Shown piece after piece: positions 3,844-62,542 of a DNA stretch of 64,000 bases; positions within the stretch are counted from its first letter, which is position 1; each line of letters opens with the position of its first letter. A model generated the notes under the pieces. It ran no database searches. It was not told where the DNA came from and worked only from the letters and a program-made list of their open reading frames with translations. The position numbers were made by a program, and so were the translations under genes. Source of the DNA: Hydractinia symbiolongicarpus (taxonomy: Eukaryota; Cnidaria; Hydrozoa; Anthoathecata; Hydractiniidae); the NCBI RefSeq assembly GCF_029227915.1, contig NC_079875.1, forward strand, positions 27,402,001 through 27,466,000, written 5' to 3'.

Positions 3844-4098
3844 GTGATGAAACTTTCTTGGGTATTTCAACTCGTGTATTTCCATCCATTTCTATTAATT
3901 AAAAGCAGCCACTGTCACAACACCAGATCATCCACAAATAATATGTTAGTTTCTCATCGAAGTGGTGCAGCGATTTTTAATAGAACATTTTTATATTTAT
4001 CTCTAAAGCTTTGGAATAGTTTGCCAGATGATATCAGAAAATTAGATAGTCTCCTTCAATTCAAGGTTGCAGTTGGCAGGCGCCATAACTTTAAATAA
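3844..4098 (+). pseudogene. 3' end of a CR1/L2-type LINE reverse transcriptase
   Basis: The frame ends with HNTRSSTNN followed by LYLSLKLWNSLPDDIR and a short basic tail. This H.TR...W N.LP..I pattern is the usual C-terminus of CR1/L2/jockey-group LINE proteins. Only the last 85 or so residues remain, as expected of a 5'-truncated LINE insertion. It directly abuts an opposite-strand LINE. Confidence 0.75.
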
Positions 4099-4104
4099 TA
4101 ATTT

Positions 4105-5525
4105 CTATAATTTTTCTATAATTTTTCTATAATCCCAATCAAACTCAGTGTTAATTAACCTCTGATAATGATTCTTCCAAGCTACCCTTTTCTCCTCCTC
4201 TGTGCTAGCCAAAACACCCTTATCATTACGTATACACTTCTCACCTACAACATCTTGGTTAGTCTTCTTCATTTGCTTTGCTATCTTGAATACCTCATTG
4301 CGCTGATCTTCCGTTCTTAACACATCTGCAAATCTGTTTCTTTCTGCTTCTGATTTTGCCTTATACACTGCTGTACGAGCACAACGCTTAGCTTCTAAGT
4401 AAATATTTTTACCACCACCTGACTTCCACTCTTTCCGAAGTCTCCTCTTTTCCCTTACACACTGGTCAACCTCGATATTCCACCACCAGGTCTGTCTATG
4501 TCTAGCTGGTCCTTTCTTCCACCCACAGGTATCATCAGAAGCTTCTAGAAGACAATTCTTTAAAGTAGTCCAAGTACTTTCAACATTGTCACTATCGCAT
4601 TGACCATTGTGTGCTAACTGCTCAACTTTTGCACTAAATTGTCTTGCTACAATCTCTCCCTTCAGCTTCCAGACTTTTCGACGGGGCCTGTACTTTTCCT
4701 TGGCTTCTTTGACACTCTTCAAGATAATATCACAAACCAGCAACCTATGCTGGGAAACACACGCTTCCCCGATATAACTTTCACGTCCTTCACCACTTTC
4801 TTGTCTGACTTTCTAACCAGGGAGTAAACTATCTGTGTCTTACAATCACCTGACTCATATGTTATCAGCCCACTCTGTCTCTTACTGAATGATGTGTTGC
4901 AAACCACCATGTCCGTTTCCATTCCAAACTCAAGCAATCTCTCCCTTCCTTATTTCTGCTCCCGAATTCATAGCCTCCATGCACACTTCCCAACATGACC
5001 ATTAAAGTCGCCGCCCACCATGACAAGTTCAGTGTCTCCAAACTTTGATGTGACTGCTATTAACTCATCATAAAACTTATCTTTATCTTCCTCACTGATT
5101 CCACCCTGTTGAGCATAAACTGACAGAAAAGTGACAATCCTATTACCTATCAAAAACTTTATCACTATAATATGACTATTAACACGCATAACAACTATTA
5201 TACCCACTTCTCATCAACAAATATGACAACTCCTCGATATCCATCACTATTGCCAATCCAAAAAAGCTTATGAAGCACCTTTCCACCTGACTTCCTGAAC
5301 ACAACACATATCAACAGATCTACGTTCTAACATTTCAACTACTTCTCCTGCTCTACCTCTCACAGTACCAACATTCACACTTGCCATCCTCAACCTATTG
5401 TTATCTACCTTGTGATGTGATAGCTGGGTAACAGTCTGACGATGCCCATACCTGACATCTGTCCTACCGTGCGCGACACCTTCACTCCTTGAATTCCAGC
5501 CCCGTTTACGCAGTTTGTCTGATCA
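4105..5525 (-). pseudogene. RTE-like non-LTR retrotransposon: endonuclease and linker, no RT
   Basis: Read on the minus strand, the segment starts with an apurinic endonuclease domain. RLRMASVNVGTVRGR and a CVQEVRW block lie near 5390-5290, and VTFLSVYAQ..GGDFNGHVG near 5140-4985. After a stop or frame change come SKRQSGLITYESGDCKTQ (about 4890-4840) and a Trp/basic linker, HRQTWWWNIEVDQ...YLEAKRCARTAVYKAK. It ends shortly before the RT would begin (WKNHYQRLINTEFDWD). At least two frame changes are present, one near 4745. The domain order fits RTE/CFDP2-like LINEs. A 3' tail of what may be the same family lies at 46190-46340. Confidence 0.75.
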
Positions 5526-15465: not shown

Positions 15466-16596
15466 TTTTGTAAGCAACATTACTCGCTTGCAAAATTTGC
15501 CTGTAATGATTGTGAAAATTTGTTAACGTGTGTTTATTGCAAACACCGACAACATAAGAATCACAGAATTAAATCGATAGATGATTTTGGCCTGGAAGCC
15601 AAAAATTGGTTTCAGTCGTTTATTACTAGCTAACAAGAAAATACAGTGACGCTCTAACAAATTTAGAGAAAGAAAGAGAAGTATTTGTTCAAAAATTAAA
15701 AGAAAGAAAGTTAAAACGACTAGAAGAATATCTCAAAATGTTAAATAAAGAACAAGAAGATCTATTGCGGATATTCGATGAGAAATCTGAAGAATTCAAA
15801 CCAAAATTGACTTGTGATGGTTTTGTCGACAATAAGAAAGTACAAGAATTTACAGATTACGTTCAAGCTTTTAATTTAAAATCTCATTTTGAGTTAGTTA
15901 CTGAAAAGTTGGAAATTGGACGACAACTTCGCAGGCTATCCTCGTTTCCAAGAACCATCCCAACATTCAAATCACATCTTCATCAAATGAACAAAGCAGA
16001 TATTTTGTCGAATCCATTGGGAGAAATTAATATTTCAATAGATGACGTCACCACTGTTGATGTAGATCCCAATGAATGTTCTGTTTATAGAAACTTGATT
16101 GATGAAGATGAAACCCAACCCAACTATTCCCAATTAACAACTGATCTAATGAACTTAGTTGAAAGTCTGATAAATGAGATTTTCATTTTATTGATTAAAG
16201 TTTTACATATATTGTGCGAATTTTAAAAAAATTTTTTTGTATTTTATAGAGTACGAGAAACCAAATGTAAATCCTCGTTCTGGAAAACAACAACAGAAGT
16301 AAGTATATTTAAATCCGCACAGAGCTATGTGCTACTTGACATCATTAATACACATCTCCATAATGATCAGAATTAGAATTTGTTGTCATTGAACTGTTTT
16401 AAATGATTGATATATCATTACAACTGCTTCAATATTTGTCACGTACAATTAAAATATTTCTACAGCCTGTTTGTTAAATGTATATACAGATTGATAAAGA
16501 TTAAAAAACAGTAGCAATGTAATTAAACGGTGTTTTTATTTAGTAATGCAAAGCCAAAAGGTTTCCAGCTTGTTAAGAAGAGTTACTCTTTTGAAG
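15466..16596 (+). pseudogene. Left TRIM copy: B-box/coiled-coil exons, truncated
   Basis: From 15466 the sequence matches the minus-strand TRIM gene at 29268-28103. The B-box Cys/His pattern (QHYSLAKFACNDCEN...CVYCKHRQHKNH) is visible, but a stop and a deletion near 15585-15635 break the frame. A 162-residue open stretch (15738-16226) covers the coiled-coil and tail. The splice donor GTGAGT of the right copy is ATGAGA here (about 16173), so this exon can no longer splice there. Two small exons keep their splice sites: 16250-16298 (49 nt) and 16544-16596 (53 nt). The RING exon and promoter are absent. A gypsy element interrupts the locus 125 bp later. Confidence 0.85.
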
Positions 16597-17122: not shown

Positions 17123-20100
17123 CTAAGTCTTCTTCTTGCGCTTCGGATTGATGATGACGTAACGCTCTGTAGTTTTTCTTTGTCGTTTCGGGTAGGTTTT
17201 TGCACCGTTCTTGTGGTTTTTCTTTTCGTATAGATCTTCTTCTTTGTTATGGCCATCATTCGGTTTAGATTGTTGGTTCTCATCAAAATTCGCATTGCTT
17301 GAGCAGGTACAAGGGTCTGCCCTGTTTCGCGCGTTAGAAACACTCGATTGCTTACCCTTCGCAGATCTATACAGTTTCGCGTGTCCGTTTGCTCGTAGAA
17401 ACGTTTTTCCTTCCTTGTTTCGAACCATGATGCTTCGTTTGTATACTTTAATGATGGTGAAGACTTCCTTTAACCAGGGCGGTGAAAGTTTGTTTTTGTT
17501 GTCGGTAAGATTTTTCAACAATACCTTTTGTCCGACTTCAAAAGTGACAGTTTTTGCCTTGCGGTTCTGGTCGGTGTTTTCCTTGGATTTCTGTTTGTGC
17601 TTTTCATCATTCTTGTTTACTTCTATATCCAATTCACTGTTGCTTTTCACAAGTTGACTAACGTCAGGAAGATCATTCGTTAGCGGTCTACCGAACATCA
17701 GTGTTGCAGGTGGAACTTTAGTTACGGTATGAGGTGTGGTTCGGTAACTCAAAAGGAATGTGTCAAGAGTTTTACGCCAATCCTTTCCAGTGATGACAGC
17801 AGTTTGATTGTGTCGCTTCAATGTGCGGTTAAATCTCTCAACCTCACCATTAGCTTGTGGCCAGTATGGAGTTGTACGCCGGTGTTTTATACCATGTTGT
17901 TGAAGGTATCGGCTGAATTTGAAGGACGTGAATTGTGAACCATTGTCAGTTACAATTGTTTTTGGATAACCAAAAATACTAAAGGTTCGCTTCATAACAT
18001 TTATTATGTTTTGCACACCAGTGTTCTTGATAGAAGAAACTATTGGGTATCTGGATCTGTAATCAATCAAAACTAACAGGTTGTCACCAGAGGGATAAGG
18101 GCCTTGAATGTCCATTGCAATAGTGTTCCAAGGTTGTTTGGGAATTTCTGTTGGTTGTGACGGTTCATGCCTGGTGGTGGAGGGTGCAGTTACTTGGCAG
18201 GCATGACAGGTAAGTGTTAGATCTTCGATTTGTTTGTTCATCAGCGGCCACCAAACTTTTTCACGTAATAGTAGTTTAGTTTTGGTTGTTCCTTGATGCG
18301 TAGCATGTGCTATCTGCAACATTTTCTGTTGTAGAGTGCTTGGGATGACAATTCGTTGTCCTTTGAGTAAAATGTTATTCACAAAGGATAACTCATGCTT
18401 TGCATGTCTGTATGGATTCAAAGCAGAATCTTTTGGCCAGGCCTTCGAGTTAATGGCTTTGGTGACTTTTTGAAGAATGATGTCTTTTGCAGTTTCATCT
18501 TGTATCTCTTCGATATTGCAGCTTTTAGGTACTGCTTCTGCTGCTGTAAAGTTGATAAAGGATTCAATTGAGTCGTCAGTTTCTCCTTCACTGTCTGTAC
18601 AAACAGGGTCTCTTGATAGTATGTCAGCAGCATTTTTGGCACCAGAAATGTATTTTAATTTGTAGTTATACCCTTGTATGCGAAGAAGCCATCTCTGGAT
18701 CCTCGGTGGTGGAGATGTGGAAGTTGGTGACATTACGTGCAAAAGACTCTTGTGATCAGTGGTGATATCGAAGTCACGGTCATATATGAAAAAGTGGAAG
18801 TGTGTGCAGCCAAAGGCAACTGCAAGAGCTTCTCGTTCTGTTTGTGAGTATCTCTGTTCAACAGGTGTTAATGCTCTACTTCCATATGCTACCGGCTTGA
18901 AGTTTCCATCTTTCTGTTTCTGTGTAAGTATGGCACCAAGACCATACGGACTTGCATCAACAATTATGTCTGTTTCCGCCTCAGGATTGTAAAATGCCAT
19001 AGTTTCAGAAGTGCAAAGTTTTTCTTTGAGTAAATCAAATGATTTCTGTTCAAGATCTGTCCATATGAATGGTGTATTTTTCTTGGTGAGTTTCCTCAGT
19101 GGAGCTGATAATGTACTGTAGTCTTTGATGAACTGACTGCAATAATTTACTAGACCAAGAAAGGATCTGACTTCTGTCGATGTTGTTGGTGTTTTGAATT
19201 TGTTGACTGCAGTGACTTTGGAAGGGTCTGGAGATATGCCATCTGTTGTGAGAGTATATCCACTAAATAAAATTTTATTCTTGCTAAACTCACATTTTTC
19301 TGGGTTGACACGCAGGCCATTCTCAGAAAGATTACGAAGAACCTTATCGAGATTGCGGTCATGCTCAGCTTGTGTTTTTCCCCAGATAAAAATATCATCA
19401 GAGATGTTCTTTGCCCCTTCACAATCAGCAATTACCATTTCAATATTTTTCTGAAAATGTTCAAAGGCACTTGAAATACCATATATGAGACGCTTGTATC
19501 TGAAAATTCCTTTATGGGTAATGAAGGCAGTAATGTTTCTGCTTTCTTCGGCTAACTCAATTTGATGGTAGCCTTCTCGCAGGTCAATTTTTGAGAAGAC
19601 AGTGGCTCCATTTAATAATGGTAGGATTTCTTCCAGTTTTGGAATAGGATGCTTCTCTCTGATAATGGCAGTGTTTGCTCTGCGCATGTCCACACACAAT
19701 CTAATTTTGCCATTTTTCTTAGGTACTGCGACAATTGGTGAAACCCACGAAGTTGGTCCATTAACTGGCTCAATGATATCTAATTTCAGCAGTCTATCGA
19801 GCTCTGCTTCAACTTTCTTTCTGGTGTGAAACGGCAGTCTCCTAGTTGGTTGCTGGATGGGGGTGACATCTGGATCAATATGGAGTTTCTGTTTGAAGTT
19901 GTTAAGTTTTCCCATTCCTTTGAATACCTTGTTGTTTTTGTTGAGGACTTGTTCTGTTGATACTGGTATGCCTTTTGACAGACTTCTGCTACCTAACTGG
20001 AATGTTCTATAGTTGATGGGTGTTGTAGCTGGTCCAATTCGTAATAGATCTAGCTGCTCAGCTGTTTTGTGACCAAGTAAATTGCCTCCTTGACCAGGTA

Positions 20101-20185
20101 TTACGTAGAATTTTGCTAGTATTTTATGGTGATTTGCTGCAACTGTAGCTTTGAAGGTACAAGCTGGATGTTGCTGAATAAGCGT
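17123..20185 (-). CDS. pol: gypsy pol: protease C-part, RT, RNase H, integrase
   Basis: The frame is open from about 20185; the first Met is at 19915 and 930 residues follow. RT: KIDLREGYHQIEL, then ISDDIFIWG carrying the catalytic Asp pair; ISDD is seen in place of the usual YxDD. RNase H: IIVDASPYGLGAIL and a DHKSL block. Integrase: an HHCC zinc finger (H...H...CHAC, about residues 545-590), then the catalytic triad in AMDIQGPYP, TDNGSQF and NGEVERFNR. The C-terminal tail is highly basic. Upstream of the first Met the frame still reads protease-to-RT linker sequence, so pol is normally made as a gag-pol fusion. Pol lies in the -1 frame relative to gag. No internal stop interrupts RT, RNase H or integrase. 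Confidence 0.93.
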   Translation of the reverse strand, partial: TLIQQHPACTFKATVAANHHKILAKFYVIPGQGGNLLGHKTAEQLDLLRIGPATTPINYRTFQLGSRSLSKGIPVSTEQVLNKNNKVFKGMGKLNNFKQKLHIDPDVTPIQQPTRRLPFHTRKKVEAELDRLLKLDIIEPVNGPTSWVSPIVAVPKKNGKIRLCVDMRRANTAIIREKHPIPKLEEILPLLNGATVFSKIDLREGYHQIELAEESRNITAFITHKGIFRYKRLIYGISSAFEHFQKNIEMVIADCEGAKNISDDIFIWGKTQAEHDRNLDKVLRNLSENGLRVNPEKCEFSKNKILFSGYTLTTDGISPDPSKVTAVNKFKTPTTSTEVRSFLGLVNYCSQFIKDYSTLSAPLRKLTKKNTPFIWTDLEQKSFDLLKEKLCTSETMAFYNPEAETDIIVDASPYGLGAILTQKQKDGNFKPVAYGSRALTPVEQRYSQTEREALAVAFGCTHFHFFIYDRDFDITTDHKSLLHVMSPTSTSPPPRIQRWLLRIQGYNYKLKYISGAKNAADILSRDPVCTDSEGETDDSIESFINFTAAEAVPKSCNIEEIQDETAKDIILQKVTKAINSKAWPKDSALNPYRHAKHELSFVNNILLKGQRIVIPSTLQQKMLQIAHATHQGTTKTKLLLREKVWWPLMNKQIEDLTLTCHACQVTAPSTTRHEPSQPTEIPKQPWNTIAMDIQGPYPSGDNLLVLIDYRSRYPIVSSIKNTGVQNIINVMKRTFSIFGYPKTIVTDNGSQFTSFKFSRYLQQHGIKHRRTTPYWPQANGEVERFNRTLKRHNQTAVITGKDWRKTLDTFLLSYRTTPHTVTKVPPATLMFGRPLTNDLPDVSQLVKSNSELDIEVNKNDEKHKQKSKENTDQNRKAKTVTFEVGQKVLLKNLTDNKNKLSPPWLKEVFTIIKVYKRSIMVRNKEGKTFLRANGHAKLYRSAKGKQSSVSNARNRADPCTCSSNANFDENQQSKPNDGHNKEEDLYEKKNHKNGAKTYPKRQRKTTERYVIINPKRKKKT

Positions 20186-21201
20186 TTATAGGTTCGAAAA
20201 TCGATGATATTTGTTGTGCTTCCAGAATCAATGATAGCAGTCATTTCGCTATTGTTTACTAGAACGGGGAAGTTATTTGACTTCGTAGTGTTCATCTTGT
20301 ATAGGTAGATATCCTCATCTTCGTCATCAGAGTTTTCATGGTTGGTTTGATGAACTTGCTGTTTATTTTTGGTGCGGCACATTTTTGCAAAATGTCCTTT
20401 AATACCACATTTGTTACATGTTTTATCTCTTGATCTCCGACATTCATGACTTTTGTGGTTCTTCATACCACAGCGACCACATTCTGGTTTGTTGAATGAT
20501 TTGGTTGGGTTGTTCCGATGTGGTGGTGCATTGTGTTTCCTATGGCTACGATGAGGTGGTCTACGCCCATGTAGTTTGTTGATTTGTTCAGAGCTTTCTT
20601 CTTCAGTGTCATGTTGTGTTTGTTTACCATTAGCTATTTCTTTGTTTTGGTGTTCTGCAGATTCAAAAAGTCGTCCAAGGTCCTGTGTTTTCTGGAGATT
20701 CAAATCAGTTTCCATAAGTAAACGTTTGCGGAATTTAATATTCGATGTTTTTGCTATGACCATGTCTCGGATTTCATTGTCAGTTTCTGATCCATATTCA
20801 CAATATAAGGAAAGTTGTCGTAGACGGGTAATGAATTGATCCGTACTTTCCCCTACTTGTTGTGAGGCTTGGTGAAATTTATGCCTTTCGAAAGGTATGT
20901 TCTTTTTGACTGAAAAATGTTCATCAAATTTATGGAGGGCTTCTTCAAATGTTGTTCCAGGATCAGAGAAAGTTTCAAATATTTCCTGGCATTTAGGTCC
21001 AATCATGTGGAGTAAAATTGCCCTCTTTCTTTCATCATCCCTAACTCCACTTGCTAGTATGTAGTATTTAAGACTGGTCTGCCATTTCGTCCATCGTTGA
21101 CCAACTGAAGTCGGTTCTCCATTTGGGTCAAAGGGTGGTATGGCTGGAAGTTGCAAAACGGACATGCTAGCTGCACAGAAATGCTCAGAGCGCGCGCACA
21201 A
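20116..21201 (-). CDS. gag: gypsy gag with CCHC knuckles and protease N-terminus
   Basis: A 361-residue frame; the most likely start is the internal Met at about 21165, which begins SVLQLPAIPPFDPNGEP, as in mag-like gag proteins. A capsid-like helical region (about residues 40-190) is followed by a basic/His-rich stretch and two zinc knuckles, CGRCGMKNHKSHEC and CNKCGIKGHFAKMC. Then comes the aspartic protease start with catalytic IIDSGSTTN. The frame ends shortly after, inside the protease, and the rest of the protease continues in the -1 frame. The overlap (20185-20116) has no obvious X XXY YYZ slippery heptamer. The spacing between the DSG motif and the flap-to-RT region looks short, so an indel rather than programmed frameshifting may be responsible. 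Confidence 0.9.
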   Translation of the reverse strand: MCARSEHFCAASMSVLQLPAIPPFDPNGEPTSVGQRWTKWQTSLKYYILASGVRDDERKRAILLHMIGPKCQEIFETFSDPGTTFEEALHKFDEHFSVKKNIPFERHKFHQASQQVGESTDQFITRLRQLSLYCEYGSETDNEIRDMVIAKTSNIKFRKRLLMETDLNLQKTQDLGRLFESAEHQNKEIANGKQTQHDTEEESSEQINKLHGRRPPHRSHRKHNAPPHRNNPTKSFNKPECGRCGMKNHKSHECRRSRDKTCNKCGIKGHFAKMCRTKNKQQVHQTNHENSDDEDEDIYLYKMNTTKSNNFPVLVNNSEMTAIIDSGSTTNIIDFRTYKRLFSNIQLVPSKLQLQQITIKY

Positions 21202-21359
21202 GTATAACTATCGCTTGAAATTACAAAGGACAGCCTAGCAAAGTTTCCTTTCGCACAGTAAGAGTCAACAAAATTTGTTGTTTTGATTCGAAAATTCACA
21301 CGTCTTGTTTCACGCGAGATTGCTTTGTAATTATGAAATATACCTCTCCATGAGTTCTT

Positions 21360-27045: not shown

Positions 27046-29268
27046 GGGACAATTATTAAAGAAAAACGGTTCTGGGTGAAAGTTATTGAGGGTCAAGAGA
27101 AATTACATTATGTATTGTTCTTACTTTACGACGAAAATGAGGTTGTTCTTAGTTTTAGAAACAACGATTTGAACCTAAAGTTGTTCTTTTGTTATTTGTA
27201 TTTGCCAGAAAGGAAAGTCTCATGTTCTTATAAAATTATATATGTAAGAAAAGCGTGGAAGTCGCTGCTTAGGGCATGTATTTAGTCGATATTAGCAAGA
27301 AGTAATTGTACGGGAGGGCATGGATAGATTGTTCAGTGAGGAATTATCATTAGTAGGTGTTATCTAGGGCGGCAGTTTTATTTGGATTCTCAAACAGTTT
27401 TTTTTTAAATTTTAAAAGTGGCAAGTGACATTACAACGACACGGTGAGTTGTTAAGAATTAAAATGGAAGTAGGCAAACTGGCTTTGATTGGCGCAGCAA
27501 GTATAAATATTTAGGGGGCAGTGTGGGAAGAAGTGGAGAAGAACATCTATTGTGCTACGAGTGGTGAAAACGGGAGTAATAGTACTACGGTAAACTACAA
27601 GTGGTTAGAAATGGGATTGAAACTACTGTTAATCATGAAAAACTACATATAGGGACGAATAAATTAAGTCTAATTTCTGCGTACCGCAAGAGAACAAACC
27701 CCAGTCTTTGTCGCCTAAAATCTCTTTCATCATATTGGTTTTATCTTAAGAAAAACTTTCAAAGTTGATGAGTGTTAAGAATTAATAGCATTGGAATAAT
27801 ACTTGTGCTCAATAAATTGTTTTCTTCGCCATAGTAGGATTATTATATAAAAAAAGAACATATAAAATTTACAATAAAATACACGAAGCTTTTTATAAAT
27901 AAAACTTAACACCTTCAGGTAAATAAGGATTATTTACGAAAAGCTTCGTGTATTTGATTGTAAATTTTAGATTTTTTTTTTATATCACTTGTGCTCACGT
28001 TATTACATATACAACCTGTTTTAGGTAGTAATAGTCTTTTAGCAATACCACAATTACTGTGTATCGAGAAAAATTATCTCCACCACATAAAAACCTTCAT
28101 ACCTTTAAAAGAGTAACGCTTCTTAGCAAGCTGGAAACTTATTGGCTTTACATCACTAAATAAAACACCGTTTAATTATAGTGCTGCTATTTTTTTAATC
28201 TTTATCAATCTGTACAAACATTTAACACACAGGCTGTAGAAATATTTCAATTGTATGCGACAAATATTGAAGCAGTTGTAATGATATATCAATCATTTAA
28301 AACAGTTCAATGACAACAAATTCTGATTCTGATCAATATGGTGATGTGTAGAGACGATGAGAAGTAACACATAGAGGATTTTAAATATACCTACTTCTGT
28401 GGTTGTTTTCCAGAACGAGGATTTACAATTGGTTTCTCGTACTCTATAAAATACAATAAAAATTTTTTAAAATTCGCACAATTTATGTTAACACTTTAAT
28501 CAATAAAATGAAAAACTCACTTTTCAGACTTTCTACTAAGTTCATTAGATCAGTTGTTAATTGTGAATAGTTGGGTTGGGTTTCAACTTCATCAATCAAG
28601 TTTCTATAAACAGAACATTCATTGAGATCTACACCAACAGTGGTGACGTCATCTATTGAAATATTTATTTCGCCCAATGGATTTGACAAAATATCTGCTT
28701 CGTTCATTTGATGAAGATGTGAATTGAATGTTGGGATAGTTCTTGGAAACGAGGATAGCCTGCGAAGTTGTCGTTCAATTTCCAACTTTTCAGTAACTAA
28801 CTCAAAATGAGATTTTAAATTAAAAGCTTGAACGTAATCTGTAAATTCTTGTACTTTCTTATTGTCGACAAAACCATCACAAGTCAATTTTGCTTTAAAT
28901 TCTTCAGACTTCTCATCGAATATCCGCAATAGATCTTCTTCTTCTTTATTTATTATTTTGAGATATTCGTCTAGTCGTTTTAACTTTCTTTCTTTTAATT
29001 TTTGAACAAATACTTCCCTTTCTTTCTCCAAATTTGTTAAAGCGTCACCGTATTTTCTTGTTAACTTTTCCAACACCACTTTTGTTTCATTGAATGATGT
29101 AATAAACGACTGAAACCACTTTTTGGCTTCCAGGCCAAAATCATCTATCAATTTAATTCTGTGATTCTTATGTTGTCGGTGTTTGCAATAAACACATGTT
29201 AACAAATTTTCACAATCGGTACAGGCAAATTTGGCAAGCGAGTCATGTTGCTTACAAAATGGTTGGAG
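27046..29268. repeat. Right arm of the inverted TRIM duplication
   Basis: Reverse complement of 15466-16720 plus 21551-22287. It is uninterrupted by the gypsy element but carries the foldback insertion 27812-27986, which the left arm lacks. Exonic identity is high (only a handful of differences over the 160 shared residues); intronic identity is lower. Confidence 0.9.
27812..27986. mobile_element. Foldback/MITE-like element, 175 bp
   Basis: The left half has aaatttacaataaaatacac followed by gaagctttt. The right half is its reverse complement, aaaagcttcgtgtatttgat followed by tgtaaatttta, giving an inverted repeat of about 35 bp. The insertion is flanked by 11-bp direct repeats acttgtgctca (27801-27811 and 27987-27997). 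The left arm has a single copy of that word (as tgagcacaagt near 16701), an empty site. It is non-coding. Confidence 0.85.
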
Positions 29269-30153
29269 TTCTTGCAGTTTTTGATTGAAAATGACATTGA
29301 TATATGATTTGTTGGAACAAGAATGAAAGTTTTGACATTTTTCAAAGATCTTTAAACTGCATTTTGTACAGGAATAGTTGATCATCTGGTTGCAGTCTTT
29401 ACTTTGCTGACATAAAGAATTAACTTTTTCACCAGGGGAGCTATGAACAAAGTAATATCAATTTTTTTACAAAAACATTCTATGTAACTAAATTATATAT
29501 CCTTATTATCCATTATAGTGACTTTCTTGACATATGCTATACAATTTTTATGTCGACCATGAGCTGCTATTTTTGTTACTTTTTTCTTATTTTTTGAACA
29601 CTTTGTACTCACGATATGAATATTTGGTATAAAATTTCTGCTTTAAAATATAATTTCCCTATGTTTATTATTCTTTTATGAAGAGCTTTTAGATTTGTAA
29701 TTGTATTTTTTTGTTCACATACAAACCACATTTGTGTATAGGTAACTGAAATGTTTGAAACTAAAAACTTTTTCACAAAATTATGTCTGTGTTATTTCCA
29801 TGCGCGTTTGTCTAAATTAAACATTCTGACAATTACTGAGAGAAGTACTAAGTAGTATTGAGCGTGTTCAGTATTATGTACATAGGATTAACTTACACTT
29901 TGTCCAAAATGCCAGTTAATGTAAACACTTTCATTAATGAGGATGTTGTTTGTTCGTGAGTAATTGTTGTCTTTTTAGTACACCTCACTGGACAAGACAG
30001 TTCAGCACTCCCATCTTCCATAAATAATAAAATACCATCTAGACAACCTTGACAATAAGTGTGCCCGCAGTTCAGTTGTTTAGGCTCATGATAGGTGTCT
30101 AAACAAATCTTGCATTCCAACAACGCAGCAAGCTCAACTTTTGATAAAGCCAT
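28103..30153 (-). CDS. TRIM-family RING/B-box/coiled-coil protein (spliced)
   Basis: Exon 1 (30153 to about 29896) starts ATGGCTTTATC and encodes a C3HC4 RING: CKICLDTYHEP, then NCGHTYCQGC and SCPVRC. Exon 2 (29440-28521) gives a first B-box-like Cys pattern (CQQSKDCNQ...YSCTKC), a B-box 2 (CKQHDSLAKFACTDCEN...C..C.HRQHKNH) and a long coiled coil (about 90 residues from KWFQSFITS). Exons 3 (28443-28395) and 4 (28155-28103) are 49 and 53 nt; all splice phases agree (2, 1, 2, 1). Exon 4 ends at a donor in phase 1 and no further exon was recognised, so the C-terminus is missing or lost. TRIM proteins are usually E3 ubiquitin ligases. A 5'-truncated paralogue lies inverted at 15.5-16.6 kb. Confidence 0.85.
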
Positions 30154-48034: not shown

Positions 48035-48671
48035 AAAAAAAACAACTCTAATGAAGATAAGGAAAATGAGGAAAAACTCTATGCATATGGTAAAGCAATG
48101 CAAGATGCGGTGTGTTAGAATCATTTTAAATCTATTCAGTTATAATAAAGGCTTCAACGGAACGAAATTGAAGTCGATACTTGCCAAATTGCGATTGGAA
48201 TTTATACCCGTCTCCAAATATACCGTCACTAGCATACGGTTTTGCTACACGATTTTTCGTATTTCTGGATAAAATAGCGTACGCGGGACTGCCGCAAGAC
48301 TCCCTGCAGAGCAAATACGGTCAAATTCGCCCTATGTTATATATTTTCATTTTTGTCTTGTTGAAAGAGTTTTCCACATTACAAATTATATTTTATATCT
48401 TAATGAAGAATGAACAGTTGTTTTGTAAGGTTTTTTTTGAAAGCCTAGTGTGGCCAATTGAGTCCAAACACGGAAAACACAAGTCTGGTTTTACAGATGT
48501 ATATCTTTTTGTTGTGAGAACACATGCAGGACTAATTATTTTAGAAAGCTCCCCACCTTCTGACCATGCCTGTGCACTCCATCAGCTAGGAAACACAGAT
48601 TCCTGTGTCCTTAGCCTGATCAACATATATATATATATATATATATACCATATATTTAACTTGTAATAACA
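48035..48671. other. No gene; ends in (TA)n
   Basis: The plus-strand frame 48181-48666 has no recognisable domain. (AT)12 occupies 48624-48647 and directly precedes the Penelope-like element. Confidence 0.4.
48624..48647. repeat. (AT)n microsatellite, left flank of the Penelope-like element
   Basis: Twelve AT dinucleotides followed by accatatatttaac. The matching tract on the other side is at 50461-50485. Confidence 0.95.
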
Positions 48672-50301
48672 AATCGCAGCGCAGCGCAAGCTTGATGACC
48701 GAATCGACCGAATCGCGCATTCTGAAGCGTACGTCACGTTGAAGGATCACAAAGAAAACTTTCGTTCGAACCCAGCGTGCCGCCTTATAAACCCTGCAAA
48801 AAGCGAACTTGGAAAGATTAGCAAAGCGATCCTCGAGCGCATTAACAAAGAGCTTGTTGAACAGCTGAGCGTCCAGCAATGGAAGAACACCAAGCAGGTA
48901 TTGAGTTGGTTCGAGGCGATCGAGAAAAAGGAAGAATGTATTTTTGTCCAGCTGGACATAAAGGAATTCTATCCTTCCATTACGAGCGACACCTTGGACA
49001 AAGCAATCGAGTTCGCAAAGCAAAAAACAACCATCAGCGATGAAGAGGTGCGTGTAATAAAGCACTGCCGCAAATCCCTCCTTTTCAACAGCGGAGAAGC
49101 ATGGCGTAAAAAAGCAACTGAAAGTTTGTTCGACGTCACGATGGGAAGTTTCGACGGCGCCGAAATATGTGAGTTAGTCGGAACCTTCATATTGTCAAAA
49201 CTAACGACGATACTTCCGAAAGAGAACGCTGGGCTGTACCGAGACGATGGGCTGATTGTGCTTCGCGGTTTCAATGCTCAAAGAACAGACCGAATGCGAA
49301 AGGAGATCGTGAAAACCTTCAAGAGTTTCGGTTTCAGTATCGAAATTGAAGCAAACCTAAAGGAAGTTGACTTCTTGGACGTTACACTCAACCTCACCGA
49401 GAAAGTGTTTCGGCCATACAAGAAGCCCAACGACAAAATCCTTTACGTGCACACGTCGTCGAACCACCCACCCAACATCCTAAAGCAACTGCCACAATCG
49501 ATAGCCGAGCGTCTTGCGCAGAACTCCTCCAACGAAACCGTGTTCAACGAAACCAAACCTGAATACGAAGATGCGCTAAAGCAAAGCGGGTACACCGACA
49601 AACTAGCGTACAAGAAGAACGTGCCAAAAGCTAGCCGAAACCGTTCGAGAAACATCATATGGTTCAACCCACCATATAACAAGAACGTTGAAACGAAAGT
49701 CGCCCAAGTGTTCCTGAAGCTCATCGACAAACACTTCGGAAAAAACAGCGCTCTGCACAAGATCCTGAACAGGAACAATGTGAAAGTGAGCTATTCCTGC
49801 ACGCGAAACTTCGAGCGAATCGTCAAAAGCCACAATGCAAACGTCGGCAAAACAAAACCTAAGGAGGCAGGCTGCAACTGCCAGAGGAGCAACAAACCAA
49901 ACTGTCCTTTGCCAGGAAACTGCAAAGTCGAAGACGTGGTTTATAATTGCGAAGTAGCGAGCCCAGAAAAACCAACCAAACTGTACATTGGCCTAGCCAG
50001 TGGAAAGTTTAAGTTGCGTTATGGCGTCCACAAATCATCCTTTCAGCACAGACACCTTGCGAAAACGACACTTGCCAAGTACATTTGGGAGCTCAAGGAC
50101 GAAAAAGCACCATACACCCTGAAGTGGTCTGTAAAAAAAAGGGTGGCCCCCTACACCAACATCACAAAGCGGTGCGCCCTATGCTTGGTCGAAAAGTTTG
50201 AAATATTGACGTCAAAGCACCCACACCTTTTAAATAAAAGATCTGAATTGCTGTCTAAGTGTTTGCACGAAAGAAAGTTTTTATTGAATTACAATGGTTA
50301 A
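48672..50301 (+). CDS. Penelope-like element ORF: RT with C-terminal GIY-YIG-like domain, 5'-truncated
   Basis: An uninterrupted frame of about 540 codons with no usable ATG at its beginning. It opens after a TAA near 48665, so the N-terminus is truncated. Landmarks: TLKDHKENF and CRLINPAKSELGKISK (the position of the LPKxHK/RPI block of Penelope RTs), FVQLDIKEFYPSI (catalytic Asp), DVTMGSFDGAEICELVG, and GLYRDDGLIVL where the second catalytic pair appears as RDDG. Then come VDFLDVTLNL, IIWFNPPYN and a CNC...CPLPGNC zinc-like cluster. The C-terminal YIGLASGKFKLRYGVHKSSF with T..L..YIWELK resembles a GIY-YIG endonuclease. Codon usage is distinctly more GC-rich than the neighbours. (TA)n tracts flank the copy and a hammerhead-like motif follows 90 bp after the stop, both fitting a Penelope-like element. 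The clade is not determined. Confidence 0.75.
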
Positions 50302-52980: not shown

Positions 52981-53589
52981 TTTAATTCGAATAAGAACTG
53001 AAAAGATGACTTTAACATTAACACCTTTTTAAACAAGCATCAGGAAAATTGAGATCGATCCTAATTCTGTGCAGGCTTGACAACAGTCAGACTTACTTGC
53101 ACCCAATTAATCATAGATTTTGGGAGTTCAAAATCTTTTTAAATAAAAGTACATACTGTTAAGTGTAAATTTGAAACACCAATATTTTTCCCTTAACAAA
53201 TTTGACGTAACTCTTTAAATTATTACTTTTTTTATAAATTAACAAAATTATATTTTACGAAGAATTTGTAGTCAAATAACAAAAGTGTTGAGAAATATTC
53301 TTTTTTACATTATATGCAAATAAGTGTTAATAACTTACCGGAGCTCAATAGTTATATTGAAAACCTATTTATATAGAGAACATTATGGCACATATCTTTC
53401 AAATTCGGAAATTATTGCACTATTATTTAGAACTAGTTATTGGTCCGTGGAAAAATCAACGGGTTTCCTTATCCTGCATTTTGTGTGGTTGGCTACTGCG
53501 CTACTATTTTGGGCAGACTAATATTAGATAAGGCTATTATTGGTGGTAACCACATTTGATATTTGTGTTTCCATTGCACGTCTTTTTAA
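52981..53589. other. No gene recognised
   Basis: AT-rich interval up to the Kolobok target duplication. A short frame at 53324-53521 is not supported. Confidence 0.5.
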
Positions 53590-53899
53590 AGGGGAACTCC
53601 AGTAAAAATCACTTTTTTCTTTTTTGTTTTATACGTACTCAGAAAAGCATAAGAAATCAAAAAAAACTTACTTCACTTGTTTTCCTTATTTAAAATCGTT
53701 GTACTAGCCTTCGCATATTCAATTTTTTTCTTATAAAAAAACAGACAGGCGCGATTTCATTTAGGACTGGACCCGATTATAAACAATGACATCACATCGT
53801 GCAGAAAGTTTAAGCGAGCGCAGAGAACGTTCATGTTAAGACCTCTGGCTTACATTTAAATCGCTTTTTGTATGTAAATTACGTTTAAATCTTTAAAAA

Positions 53900-56564
53900 A
53901 TGGTTAGTTGCTCTGCGTTTGGATGTACCAATCGATCAGAAAAGTGTAAAGAAGTCAGTTTTCACAGAATCCCGTCTGTGAAAAAGAAAGAACTCAGACA
54001 AAAATGGCTAAACAAAATACGTCGTACAGGTGATCTACCAAGCGATCGAAGTTTTTATATTTGTTCGTCGCACTTCACAGATAGTTCTTTTAAAAGGGAT
54101 CTCCAGGTAATAATCTTCCATATTAAAATATTGCCACTTCGTAAAAATGCCATTTTAGCTAGTCAACGCGATCAAAGTTTCTCATTTCTTCTTCATTTCA
54201 TTATTTGTACTTATATCCACAACACAACCAAATAACGTTTTCTACATATTTATATTATAAAAGAACATTATACCAATTTCCAATACAAAGTTATCTAGTT
54301 AGACATGTATCTTTCGTAGCGCTCGTAAGTTTCTATTCTTTGTTTTTCAAAAAAGAAGCTTTTTGATGGAAGGACCTGCCGAATATTTTCAGGGGGTAAA
54401 TGTGCCCATTTTATTAGCATCATTTCATCGGCGCTACTTCTAATCTTTGTTTATTTAGGCTGAACTTACTGGTATCAAAAGAAAGAGACAGCTGACCGAG
54501 GATGCTGTTCCAACAATTTTTTCTTTTAGTAAGCCTGAAAATTCAAGAGAATCGACATCAAAAAGATTGGAAACTTTCGCTAAAAAACAAGTGTGTTTTT
54601 AAAATTTATGCTATTGCCAAAATGTGAGTTGTGCCTGTCTTTTTTCTTGGAAGTTATTCTGATCATTTTTTTTCTAGTGTGTTGCAAAGGCTTTAAGTGT
54701 GGAGGATGATGTTGACCTTGAAGTATACGCTGAACAAGAAATAATTTCATTGGTTAAGGAACAAGGCGTTAGTGCAATTGTGGAAACGGTAGAGAAATCG
54801 GTTGGTGCCAATACTTTTACCAGGTCCGTTAGAACACAATGTGATCCCTTAGAGGCAATTCATCCTGAGATACAACCAACGAAGGATGTTTTAAAAGTGA
54901 AATTTACTCTTCCGCACGGACGATGTAAGTCTACTAACACCGACCTATCCTTTCCTCCGCAAGCTGACGTGACATTCTTGCTGAATGCAAATATGGAAAG
55001 TGATCATGATATCGTCTCTGGTGATGAGTGCCCTTCTGATGATTCTTTATACTCACCGCAATTACAAATTCACATCGACGACAGTTATGATGAAAATATC
55101 AGCGAAGAAGAGTCTTTTGACACTGCTGAATGTAACCCAGGGCTCAAAAGCGACGCACAATTTCTTGTTTTCTGGTCTTGTCTGTTGACATTATTTCAAG
55201 TTTGTTTCACGTGTTTACAAAAAACGTGCATTACTCGTGTGGTAAAACGTGGAACTCTTATCATTGTTACTAGTATTTGTCCAAATAAACATGTTTTCAG
55301 CTGGCAGTCTCAACCTATCGTAAATGGAAGAGCAGCAGGGAACTTATTACTTTCTGCAGCCATATTGTATTCCGGAAACACATACGCCCGCATTGCCGAA
55401 ATGATGAGTATTTTGAGGCTTCAGTTTATCTCTAAGTCCACCTTCTATGATATTTAAAGGTCCGTTCTTTTTCCAAAATTAAACACTTTTTATAAAAAAT
55501 ATCGAAATAACATTTATTCTGAGTGCGCTGCGAAAGAAGGGAATTTGATTGGTGATGGGCGAAGTGACTCTCCAGGTTACAGTGCAAAGTATGGTACGTA
55601 CACTCTAATGAGCGTAGACATCAATAAAATCATCGACTTTCAAGTTGTTCATGTTAGAACTGCAGGGAATTCTAGTCGAATGGAGAAGTGGGGATTAGTA
55701 ACGCTACTAAATAAGCTGCGTGACCACAAAGTGACAGTTTCAGCATTAACAACAGATCGCCATGTTCAAATCCGCGCATTCATGAAGAAAGAACATCCTG
55801 AGATAAACCACCAGTTCGACGTTTGGCACTTTGGAAAAAGCTTGAAAAAAAGCTTGACTGCTGCTGCGAAGCGCAAAGAATGTCTTGAGCTGATACCTTG
55901 GATCAAATCCATTATAAATCATTTATGGTGGTGCTGCGCTTCATGCGACAAAAATGAAAACGTTTTACGTGAAAGGTGGCTTAGCATTCTTTATCATATT
56001 CGTGGAATCCACTCTTGGCAAGGCAATGAATATTTCCATGAATGTGCGCACCCCACATTAGACCAGCAACGCAAATGGTTAAAGTTGAATTCACCTGCAT
56101 ATGAAGCAGTGGAGACTATTGTGCAAAATAAAAAAACTCTTGCCGACATGAACTATTTGGCGCACTTTTGCCATACGGGAAGCCTAGAGGTATTCCATTC
56201 TTTGCTTACCAAATATTGCCCGAAACGTATTCATTTCAGCATGGAAGGTATGATCGCGCGCACGCAGCTGGCTGTCCTTGATTTTAACTCGGGGACTAAT
56301 TGTGAACAGGCTGTTACCAAAAAAGGAGTACTCCGCTATAAACAAGTCTTTTCACGAGTAACACAATCCTGGGTCGTAAAAAAAATTACCGAGAAGAAAG
56401 AAAAGGCGTATTTAGCAGAATTAATGACGGCTACTTTGGAACCAATCGACAACGAAAAAGATAAGTTACCACAAACAGGAGAAATTGCTGAAAGAATAAC
56501 AGAGGTTGAAAAACCCGACAAAAGCGATGCCATTAAAGCCATCAGGACAAGATTTAAAACGTGA
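53900..56564 (+). CDS. THAP-domain Kolobok transposase (three exons, one premature stop)
   Basis: Exon 1 (53900-54106) encodes the THAP zinc-binding domain: C.AFGCTNR, FHRIP, W, then FYICSSHF (C2CH). Exon 2 (54459-54590, ELTGIKRKRQLTEDAVPTIF) and exon 3 (54678-56564) follow in phase 0 with clean GT/AG sites. Exon 3 has an acidic linker, then the catalytic region: GNLLLSAAILYSGNTYARIA, GDGRSDSPGYSAKYGTYTLM, TTDRHVQIR, HQFDVWHFGKSLKK, INHLWWCCASC, FCHTGSLEVFHSL and KRIHFSMEGMIARTQLA. A TAA at 55455-55457 (after STFYDI) interrupts an otherwise continuous frame. It sits where relatives have a sense codon, most simply a C-to-T change, so this copy is probably inactive unless read through or spliced. 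There is no other damage. It would bind the transposon ends through THAP and catalyse TTAA-targeted insertion (family knowledge). Confidence 0.88.
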
Positions 56565-56587
56565 CTTTTTTATTTTTTTATTTTTAT

Positions 56588-57633
56588 TCAACTTTCTATA
56601 AATAAAACATATTTTTCATCTTCTGCCGGATATTTTCTTCGAATTGCCCATACTACACAAGAAGGAATCACTCTTCTCACCCCTTTTCCCAATCGACTGT
56701 GTATCCACCAAGTGAACTGTTTATAACCAGCGTAACGATAAGATCTATATAGAAAAATAAGGGAGGCATTATTGTCAGTTTTTTACCTTCTTTTTCTCGG
56801 ACAAAAGAAGGGCTTGGAAACGAGGTTGAGCTACTTACTCATTTTTTAATTCTAAAGTGTCTCCTCTCAAATCATGCAATGCAGATAACGCAGTTTCTAA
56901 AACAGCTTTTGTCAAAACAACCACTTGAAAATCAGCAGCTTCTGTAACGCATTTATGACCTATGATAAGAGTGATTTTCAATTATACAATATTTATACCC
57001 CCGTTTTACTAACTTATCATTTCCACACGAACCTTATTCGATCTTTCGATCACGCATTTCAATGTTCTCCATCACGGAGAAAATGTAACATTACATAAGA
57101 TTTCTTTGCATTTGTGTGCAAAAAAAAGCGCATGCGGAGGAATTAGATTGTTGAACCGTGAAATAAAAATAAATTGGCTTGTGAAGTAAAAAAAAAGTGA
57201 TGAAAGATTATTTTATTGAAGCAAAAGATAAAGTTTTTGACGAAAAGAATGTAAAAGAAAAGCGATGAAATATATTTTTTATTTGTTTAAAAAGGAAAAT
57301 TTCGCTTAGAAAAAAATTATATTTGCAGTATATATCCTACCTACCTTGGAAAAACTCATCAGGAATTTCGTTTGACTCGACACAGCACACGCTTTCAGTA
57401 TCGGTTTCCATTGCTCTACAATTTCCACATTCACACCAATTTGCATTACCCGTACGTGGCTCTGCATCAGTAAAAGAAACCTCGTCATTTTCTACACCGT
57501 TACTAACTTCTTCCTCGTCAGACACAAGAGGTTCAAATTCGTATGGCTGTAGCTTTGTAAAGTCTTTTTCATGAAGAGAATTATCCGATTCTGAGCTTTC
57601 TAAGTTATATTCTTCGTCATTATTACAAGACAT
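56588..57633 (-). CDS. P2X7-type cytosolic (ballast) domain protein, three exons, inside Kolobok
   Basis: Exon 1 (57633-57345) begins MSCNNDEEYNLES, is acidic, and carries WCECGNCRAMETDTESVCC, the Cys-rich start of the P2X7 receptor C-terminal ballast domain. Exon 2 (56959-56839) encodes HKCVTEAADFQVVVLTKAVL and exon 3 (56744-56588) SYRYAGYKQFTWWIHSRLG followed by RRVIPSCVVWAIRRKYP. Splice sites are canonical and phases agree (1, then 2). No transmembrane or ATP-binding ectodomain of a P2X channel is present, so it is the isolated intracellular domain. In P2X7 that fold binds zinc and guanine nucleotide (family knowledge). An alternative upstream Met lies at 57711. It lies entirely within the transposon and is intact, so it may serve transposition or be a captured gene; the role is unknown. 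Confidence 0.82.
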
Positions 57634-57925
57634 CTTATCAACGAACAATGTAAACAGTAAGTAAACAAAACTTTTAGAAGGCGTGCTGCTGAGCTCACGG
57701 ACTTTTTGCACGATGTGACGTATGCTAATTTATTCGGACCTAGTCCTCTCGACTTTACGCGACCTTGCAAATTTATTTGAAATTGAAGATGTTTGCGGAC
57801 GCGATTAAGGTATAAATAAAGATTTTTAACGATTGTAAAAGGTTTATTTTGACATATTTATGTATTGTCTTATAAAAATAACATTTTTTTCAAATATTTT
57901 TTTTTTCACTGGAGTGCCCCTTTAA

Positions 57926-61573: not shown

Positions 61574-62542
61574 ATGCCGATTAATCCAATATACGAAGGA
61601 GACGACTTTACGCCAGAGGAAAAAATTCCAGACGAGGATGAATCTTTCAATAGGCCCGATGCCAGCTCCACGCTAACGCCAGATCAGGAGCAAGAGCAGG
61701 GTCAATCGCCTAGCGCCTCAGCAAGAGCACGAGACACCACAACAAGACAGAGCGAAGAGCTACTAAAATCAAAGGTCGACGATCTTTACGAACACCTTGG
61801 TGAGGAGCTGGGGCAGCCAATCGCGAGATATTACAACGATTTTGAGGCACGAGGAAACCAGCTTCTTTTCGATGGCATAGAGATCACGAAAAGGCATGGT
61901 GAATTGAGGAGCGTTGCCGAGATACGGAGGAGGTTAGGTACAAATCGCTTGCGATCCATGGGTTTTACCGACTATACTACACCAAACAAAGGCAGTAAAG
62001 CAATGGCTCAGAAACTCCTTAACGAGATTGTTCACGTTGATCGCCTAGCGGCTCAGCAAGAGCAAGAGAAGGCTGATGATATCGAAATGATGCCGCTGCT
62101 CGAGAACGTCCTTGATGAAACGGAGAGCCTGATCGATCGCCTAGCGGCTCCGCAGGAGCAAGAGACTCCCTTTGGCGCCAGCGATCGCCTAGCGGCTCAG
62201 CAAGAGCAAGCCTTCACAGAGCGTGAAAGAAGAGGGCTCAACCTCGAGCTTCAAACGCTAAGGGGTAACCTGAAGCACTTGAAAAGCAAGATGATCTTCT
62301 ACGACAGCGAGATCGCCAAAGCAGAAGCCCAGGTGAAAAGGCATGAGACGAAGAAAGCTACACCTGGAGTATCAGAGGAACAGCAAACTATCTGGAACGA
62401 AGACATTGCAAAGGCTAGGGAAGATCTAGAACGACTCCAAGATCAAAAGGAAGTAGGACGAGAAGCACACGGTTTACTATCATCTGACATTCAGAGCCAA
62501 CTGAAAGAAGGAAACGCTGATGAAAATCGCAGAAGGCGATAA
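61574..62542 (+). CDS. Gln/Glu-rich coiled-coil protein of the cassette
   Basis: 322 residues, ATG at 61574. The N-terminal 70 residues are acidic and Gln/Ser-rich (DQEQEQGQSPSASARAR). Residues 70-150 look folded (GEELGQPIARYYNDFEARGN). Three DRLAA.QEQE repeats follow, then a long charged coiled coil (about residues 215-310). It ends DENRRRR, overlapping the next gene by 23 bp in another frame. Intronless and clearly richer in GC than the flank. No function is recognised; a virion or scaffold role would fit the neighbours. Confidence 0.6.
   Translation: MPINPIYEGDDFTPEEKIPDEDESFNRPDASSTLTPDQEQEQGQSPSASARARDTTTRQSEELLKSKVDDLYEHLGEELGQPIARYYNDFEARGNQLLFDGIEITKRHGELRSVAEIRRRLGTNRLRSMGFTDYTTPNKGSKAMAQKLLNEIVHVDRLAAQQEQEKADDIEMMPLLENVLDETESLIDRLAAPQEQETPFGASDRLAAQQEQAFTERERRGLNLELQTLRGNLKHLKSKMIFYDSEIAKAEAQVKRHETKKATPGVSEEQQTIWNEDIAKAREDLERLQDQKEVGREAHGLLSSDIQSQLKEGNADENRRRR

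Follow-up and report, generated by a model that had tools for sequence, protein, structure and literature searches.

Why should a DNA transposon carry, tail to tail with its transposase gene, a second gene whose product resembles only the cytosolic domain of the P2X7 receptor? The question is raised by a 64,000-nucleotide stretch of the Hydractinia symbiolongicarpus genome (NCBI RefSeq assembly GCF_029227915.1, contig NC_079875.1, positions 27,402,001 to 27,466,000 of the forward strand; hereafter the window), in which positions 53590-57921 hold what its sequence marks, with near certainty, as a KolX-bearing Kolobok transposon. KolX is the name given by Kojima and Bao (2022; PMC9587614) to a second protein encoded by Kol0-type Kolobok elements. 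The class was thus already published in 2022, and the window element is a well-preserved new example of it; new here are the young Hydractinia family, its copy census and deletion derivatives, the recurrent tail-to-tail gene order and the selection on KolX. No description of this Hydractinia family was found in the literature on Hydractinia, KolX or P2X7 with Kolobok. We consider it probable (about 0.72) that KolX is a maintained accessory factor of the transposon, a role that we infer from the evidence set out below. The element is built as follows (window positions):

53586-53589, no strand: TTAA, left copy of the target-site duplication (TTAA flanks all ten full-length copies)
53590-53608, + strand: left terminal inverted repeat with its AGGGGAACTCCAGT core, from the end search and arm complementarity
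53789-53809, + strand: left arm of a subterminal inverted repeat, 90% complementary to 57701-57721; a candidate transposase-binding site
53900-54106, + strand: transposase exon 1, with the THAP domain (C4, C9, C55, H58)
54459-54590, + strand: transposase exon 2, with the AVPTIF box
54678-56564, + strand: transposase exon 3, with the DDE core D406, D473, E617 (numbered in the spliced frame) and an in-frame stop at 55455-55457
56569-56588, - strand: three AATAAA at the KolX stop or immediately beyond it, by sequence only candidates for poly(A) signals
56588-56744, - strand: KolX exon 3 including the stop codon; encodes RYAGYKQFTWW...RRVIPSCVVWAIRRKYP
56601-56606, + strand: AATAAA, the first past the transposase stop, within KolX exon 3; likewise a candidate poly(A) signal
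56839-56959, - strand: KolX exon 2
57345-57633, - strand: KolX exon 1, with an acidic N-terminus and the zinc-site cysteines WCECGNC...CC
57701-57721, - strand: right arm of the subterminal inverted repeat
57903-57921, - strand: right terminal inverted repeat with its AGGGGCACTCCAGT core
57922-57925, no strand: TTAA, right copy of the target-site duplication

The element is opened at 53590 by AGGGGAACTCCAGT and closed at 57921 by ACTGGAGTGCCCCT, and TTAA borders both. The 18-mer formed by TTAA and the terminal inverted repeat occurs without mismatch at two sites in the 64-kb window, which are the two element ends, and with up to three mismatches at three sites, against 0.17 expected. The 23-nt arms (53586-53608 and 57903-57925) are 91% complementary, and the 21-nt subterminal pair lies about 200 bp inward of each end. 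The first letters are AG and the last CT, that is, the 5'-RR...YY-3' termini of Kolobok. Between the ends, the transposase comprises 741 codons from three spliced plus-strand exons with GT..AG introns, interrupted by the single internal stop. Its THAP domain (Pfam, 9.7e-15) has the C2CH residues in place and is followed by the AVPTIF box at residue 85, both described as features of Kolobok transposases (PMC6004289). The D, D and E columns are invariant in an alignment of eight relatives, which include two near-identical sister copies, and are present in the window copy; the alignment also conserves the His and Cys columns of a putative H2CH zinc finger. A Pfam 'Mutator' match (4e-5) falls under the curated cut-off, and exon 3 had no match in plasmids. 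None of the transposase relatives listed bears the name Kolobok, and the family name therefore rests on the motifs, the ends and the TTAA; the Kol0-type label is given, at sequence level, by the P2X7 similarity and seven cysteines of the second protein. End search, Pfam and splice frames thus bear out the anatomy that an earlier note on this DNA had read from its letters, namely TTAA duplications, matching ends, a THAP transposase and a convergent three-exon gene.

The minus-strand gene, KolX, is spliced from three exons (57633-57345, 56959-56839 and 56744-56588, all with GT..AG borders) into 188 residues without internal stop. The earlier note had taken its product for the cytosolic domain of P2X7, and this assignment holds: KolX matches Pfam P2RX7_C at 6.3e-24 and the P2X7 chains in the PDB at 2.8e-9, spanning P2X7 residues 456-589 when compared as a single sequence and 469-592 when compared as a profile, and its predicted fold is that of the P2X7 ballast. 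The published KolX proteins are reported to resemble P2X7 residues 476-595 and to have seven cysteines (PMC9587614). Here these are C67, C69, C72, C83, C84, C100 and C166, so that the zinc-ligating cysteines of the ballast fold are present in the sequence. In an alignment of 26 sequences C83, C84 and C100 are invariant and the other four are conserved at 90% or more; a 29-sequence alignment, richer in fragments, puts C67, C69 and C72 under 90%. Pfam detected no P2X channel domain in the 188 residues, P2RX7_C being the only match. An NCBI protein of H. symbiolongicarpus (P0001, 'P2X purinoceptor 7-like') is equally long, with 2 differences in 188 positions, and public annotation has therefore arrived, for a sister copy, at an identically spliced product. 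Homology and predicted fold agree with the published claim that P2X7 was born from the fusion of a P2X4-like gene and KolX (PMC9587614), which is also what the earlier note had proposed in suggesting the element as a route for this domain into P2X7.

The two genes are convergent, with 23 bp from the transposase stop codon to that of KolX. The first AATAAA of either gene lies in or beside the last exon of the other, the minus-strand triplet reaching to within 5 bp of the transposase stop, and the 3' ends of the two transcripts should therefore overlap.

Is the pairing particular to this copy? We scanned the 480.9-Mb Hydractinia assembly, in which the window lies on contig C1. A search with the whole element returned 84 matches (best 40 of 410 candidates), which yield ten copies of full length and many incomplete ones. 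To delimit the young set, the 260 bases at each end of the element were searched for independently, which gave 17 left ends at 99-100% identity (best 40 of 292 candidates) and 20 right ends at 98-100% (best 40 of 279 candidates), the next matches being at most 97% identical on either side. Seventeen young copies retain both full ends, ten of them full-length and seven internally deleted (L032-L038, of which L038 keeps one 94-bp island within its deletion). This copy search, proposed in the earlier note, places KolX between the ends in all 17, always with its three exons and GT..AG borders and in 15 with an open frame; the transposase is complete in ten. What these seven have lost is in every case transposase and leader sequence, and an eighth young deletion, L047, has removed most of both genes. 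L047 stands outside the 17 (62 bp of left end, 552 bp of right end, KolX truncated), as do L045 and L046, which have the right end only; L042, at 94-97%, was not classed as young.

The ten full-length copies, with TTAA on both sides of each, vary at 42 of 4,339 alignment columns and occupy nine sites with differing flanks; L009 and L011 have identical flanks and were counted once, which leaves nine independent insertions. The Hydractinia family is young and probably still mobile. Among these ten the transposase frame is open in seven, that of KolX in nine and both in six. The earlier note had leaned on an intact accessory gene beside a transposase with one stop: this is true of the window copy, but the other nine full-length copies all lack that stop (two of them have single-base frameshifts), and because it is private to the window copy the pairing is uninformative. 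The genome also contains older copies, and those scored are 92-97% identical at their ends. Three short ones (L048-L050) have neither gene complete; the THAP exon is whole in two and partial in the third, and a piece of KolX exon 1 is left in two. L009 and L011, which share their flanks, represent one insertion seen twice on contig C7, in opposite orientations and at a distance of about 10.6 Mb, with KolX matches near the two in mirrored order; either a large segment has been duplicated in inverted form or the assembly is at fault there. On contig C6, 6 kb separate the right-end fragment L046 from full-length L005; a nonsense codon interrupts KolX at the same residue in both, and L046 is probably a local duplicate of L005.

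A genome search with P2RX7_C scored 150 matches, all above the Pfam cut-off (best 150 of 466 candidates), and none of 14 control genomes was positive; a search with transposase P0062 gave 75 matches (best 60 of 686 candidates), merged into 58 loci. At least 39 of these 58 have an opposite-strand KolX 42-989 bp past the transposase match, where chance would provide such a neighbour at about 0.0005 per locus, and in none of the 58 was KolX found in any other arrangement within 4 kb, among the matches listed. Eight loci read directly (L051-L058), seven picked by hand from the KolX list across its score range and one from the 19 transposase loci left over, all have the convergent pair; L051, L053 and L055 are also counted in the 39. 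The number of KolX exons differs: three make up the gene in the window, L051 lacks the second intron and so has two, and in L052 and L053 the matched part is a single exon. A 14.9-kb contig from a Bathymodiolus symbiont assembly (L001, NZ_CAHJWD020000427.1) carries parts of a Kolobok transposase and, again convergent with them, the final exon of KolX; it is probably mussel host DNA inside the assembly of a bacterial gill symbiont. Taken as mussel DNA, it is the one relative among 44 pattern matches in prokaryote genome contigs, and 22 pattern matches in viral contigs included no relative. Three more KolX/transposase pairs have the same source and record size (4,232, 3,415 and 6,468), which suggests that the members of each are linked. 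On contig C6, three equal-scoring KolX matches (11542348, 11547338 and 11552328) are spaced by exactly 4,990 bp, which suggests a tandemly repeated Kolobok element, and the middle one (L057) has a convergent transposase. Downstream of the Kolobok element in L051, positions 3914-5372 hold a long repeat-like stretch with YYSVLLNTTR and EYYKVLQCIT in two frames.

Between families KolX is conserved at the protein level. When the window and L051 families are compared, the ballast part of KolX (121 codons) has 84% of its synonymous sites changed and 30% of its non-synonymous ones, the figures for transposase exon 3 (601 codons) being 79% and 42%, respectively; the synonymous sites are saturated, and for this reason we give no ratio of non-synonymous to synonymous substitution (dN/dS). 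The ballast part is nevertheless held at least as tightly as transposase exon 3. The earlier note had proposed dN/dS of both genes between copies. Within the young family the few differences resemble post-insertion decay, and this comparison, uninformative between copies that are too alike or decaying, was dropped in favour of the one between families, where protein-level conservation appears. An argument for selection from broken and intact frames was likewise abandoned, because 3 of 10 broken transposases (2,226 nt) and 1 of 10 broken KolX frames (567 nt) do not differ per base.

The functional accessory factor suggested in the earlier note is thus supported by a KolX that is structurally complete in 17 of 17 young copies, convergent in at least 39 of 58 loci and conserved as a protein. 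That note would have given up the idea had most copies lacked the minus-strand gene or had the profile found no P2X7 similarity; neither is the case for the transposase-bearing copies among the matches listed. In the mechanism we propose, binding to the ends or to the subterminal repeats would fall to the THAP domain, and cutting and insertion at TTAA to the DDE core, so that cut-and-paste itself would be the work of the THAP-DDE protein. KolX would be made as a protein of its own and would act in trans, most likely not in signalling or as a channel but as a zinc-stabilised adaptor that aids the transposase or its complex with DNA. As for the window copy, it cannot yield a full transposase, can still yield KolX, and could be mobilised only by the transposase of another copy. 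Kolobok lineages with a transposase alone are reported (PMC9587614), and KolX is therefore not needed for the chemistry in general.

Several observations weigh against a maintained accessory role. At 19 of the 58 transposase loci no KolX was found within 4 kb, among the matches listed; at least four of these do carry KolX, namely the window, L003, L039 (frame broken) and L058. In decayed sister copies the omega of KolX ranges from 0.35 to 1.57, on just 4-9 synonymous changes, too few to inform. Across five element pairs the identities of KolX and transposase give no sign of co-divergence, being uncorrelated (r = -0.03, with 57 of 120 label permutations as high), one KolX being a fragment and three of the pairs being joined solely by equal record size. 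Finally, the guanosine-nucleotide site of rat P2X7 is described as R546, H547, R574, R578 and K583 (PMC7016195). Only two of these five guanosine diphosphate (GDP) contacts are kept in KolX (R546 as R140, R578 as R172), H547, R574 and K583 being replaced by Y141, V168 and A177, and a nucleotide-binding role of KolX is therefore doubtful.

What else could account for the gene? KolX might counter host silencing or tune expression of the element, in part through the overlapping 3' ends, and take no part in cut-and-paste. We regard this as unlikely, while acknowledging that the existence of transposase-only lineages (PMC9587614) fits it, as does the predicted transcript overlap, although AATAAA is common in this AT-rich window (159 against 135 expected). 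It would also fit the deletions, since seven of eight young ones take the transposase and leader alone and leave KolX whole, L047 being the exception; this sparing is, however, only weakly unusual (P = 0.010 under uniform placement, 0.25 when the retained left and right lengths are swapped) and gives a weak hint that deletions preferentially spare KolX. We rank a role in the transposition complex higher because gene order and conservation track the transposase through diverged families. Those same observations bear on the idea that KolX is an inert passenger, a host gene captured once between the ends. A frame broken in 2 of 17 young copies and the loss of most of KolX from the short older copies L048-L050 are what it would lead one to expect; the convergent KolX of diverged Hydractinia Kolobok families and of the mussel, the conservation of the protein despite saturated synonymous sites and the retention of all seven cysteines make it very improbable. 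A last reading, for which the NCBI product name 'P2X purinoceptor 7-like' might speak, has a transposon land beside or around an ordinary P2X7-like gene of the host. It is scarcely credible: in each of the 17 young copies KolX is enclosed by the same pair of ends, the ten full-length copies being at nine sites, and KolX contains no detected P2X channel domain.

Alongside the accessory role, a further, rather speculative and improbable notion is that KolX is kept by selection at the level of copies, transposase-less derivatives persisting because KolX or its overlapping transcript protects or regulates the family. Deleted copies that make repressors are known from other transposons, and if such selection acted here the deletion derivatives would constitute a KolX-only regulatory class. 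Whichever role it has, Hydractinia offers a practical model, with a recently moving KolX-bearing Kolobok family, diverged sister families and a constant convergent order wherever the pair was seen, in which the role of KolX in the transposon, and hence the original role of the P2X7 tail, becomes directly testable.

The remainder of the window holds other repeat-like and coding stretches. On the minus strand, 17123-21207 contains a pair of long open frames resembling a long terminal repeat retrotransposon, one of 1,020 aa with reverse transcriptase, RNase H and integrase domains and, overlapping its start, a gag-like one of 363 aa (PNMA; a zinc knuckle just under the cut-off). A 237-aa minus-strand frame at 31176-31889 matches the Pao retrotransposon peptidase (9.6e-45). 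The 543-aa plus-strand frame at 48670-50301, with a weak reverse transcriptase match (5.9e-6, under the curated cut-off) and by eye a GIY-YIG-like end, is perhaps a Penelope-like element. Two coding stretches at 15630-16226 (+ strand) and 28483-29457 (- strand, with a B-box) look very similar by eye in opposite orientation, representing either an inverted duplication or a repeated gene. The 322-aa plus-strand open frame at 61574-62542 has no Pfam match at 0.001 and shows repeated 'DRLAAQQEQ' pieces by eye.

Among known systems, the closest is the KolX-bearing Kol0 lineage (Kolobok-1_XT type; PMC9587614), with which the window element shares TTAA duplications, 5'-RR...YY-3' ends, a DDE transposase and a separate protein with P2X7 ballast similarity and seven cysteines; Hydractinia is not named in the passages on that lineage, to which the census and the convergent order are added here. 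KolobokP, as described in the same paper, also has its transposase on one strand and a downstream accessory gene on the other, but the accessory is a His-Me finger nuclease and the element has long terminal direct repeats, in place of the KolX and short inverted ends of the Hydractinia element. Compared with the cytoplasmic ballast of P2X7 (PDB 6u9v, 9e3m and others), KolX is a stand-alone protein of 188 aa in which the channel domain was not found and the GDP contacts H547, R574 and K583 are not kept. Stand-alone ballast (ZCD) proteins, Nanor among them (PTHR36981), were described by Rump et al. (2020; PMC7016195), in whose text the word stem 'transpos' does not occur, and they share with KolX the stand-alone domain and a short N-terminus. 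Nanor is treated as a fish host gene, whereas all 17 young copies of KolX are part of a mobile element; Kojima and Bao suggest that Nanor is itself a domesticated KolX (PMC9587614).

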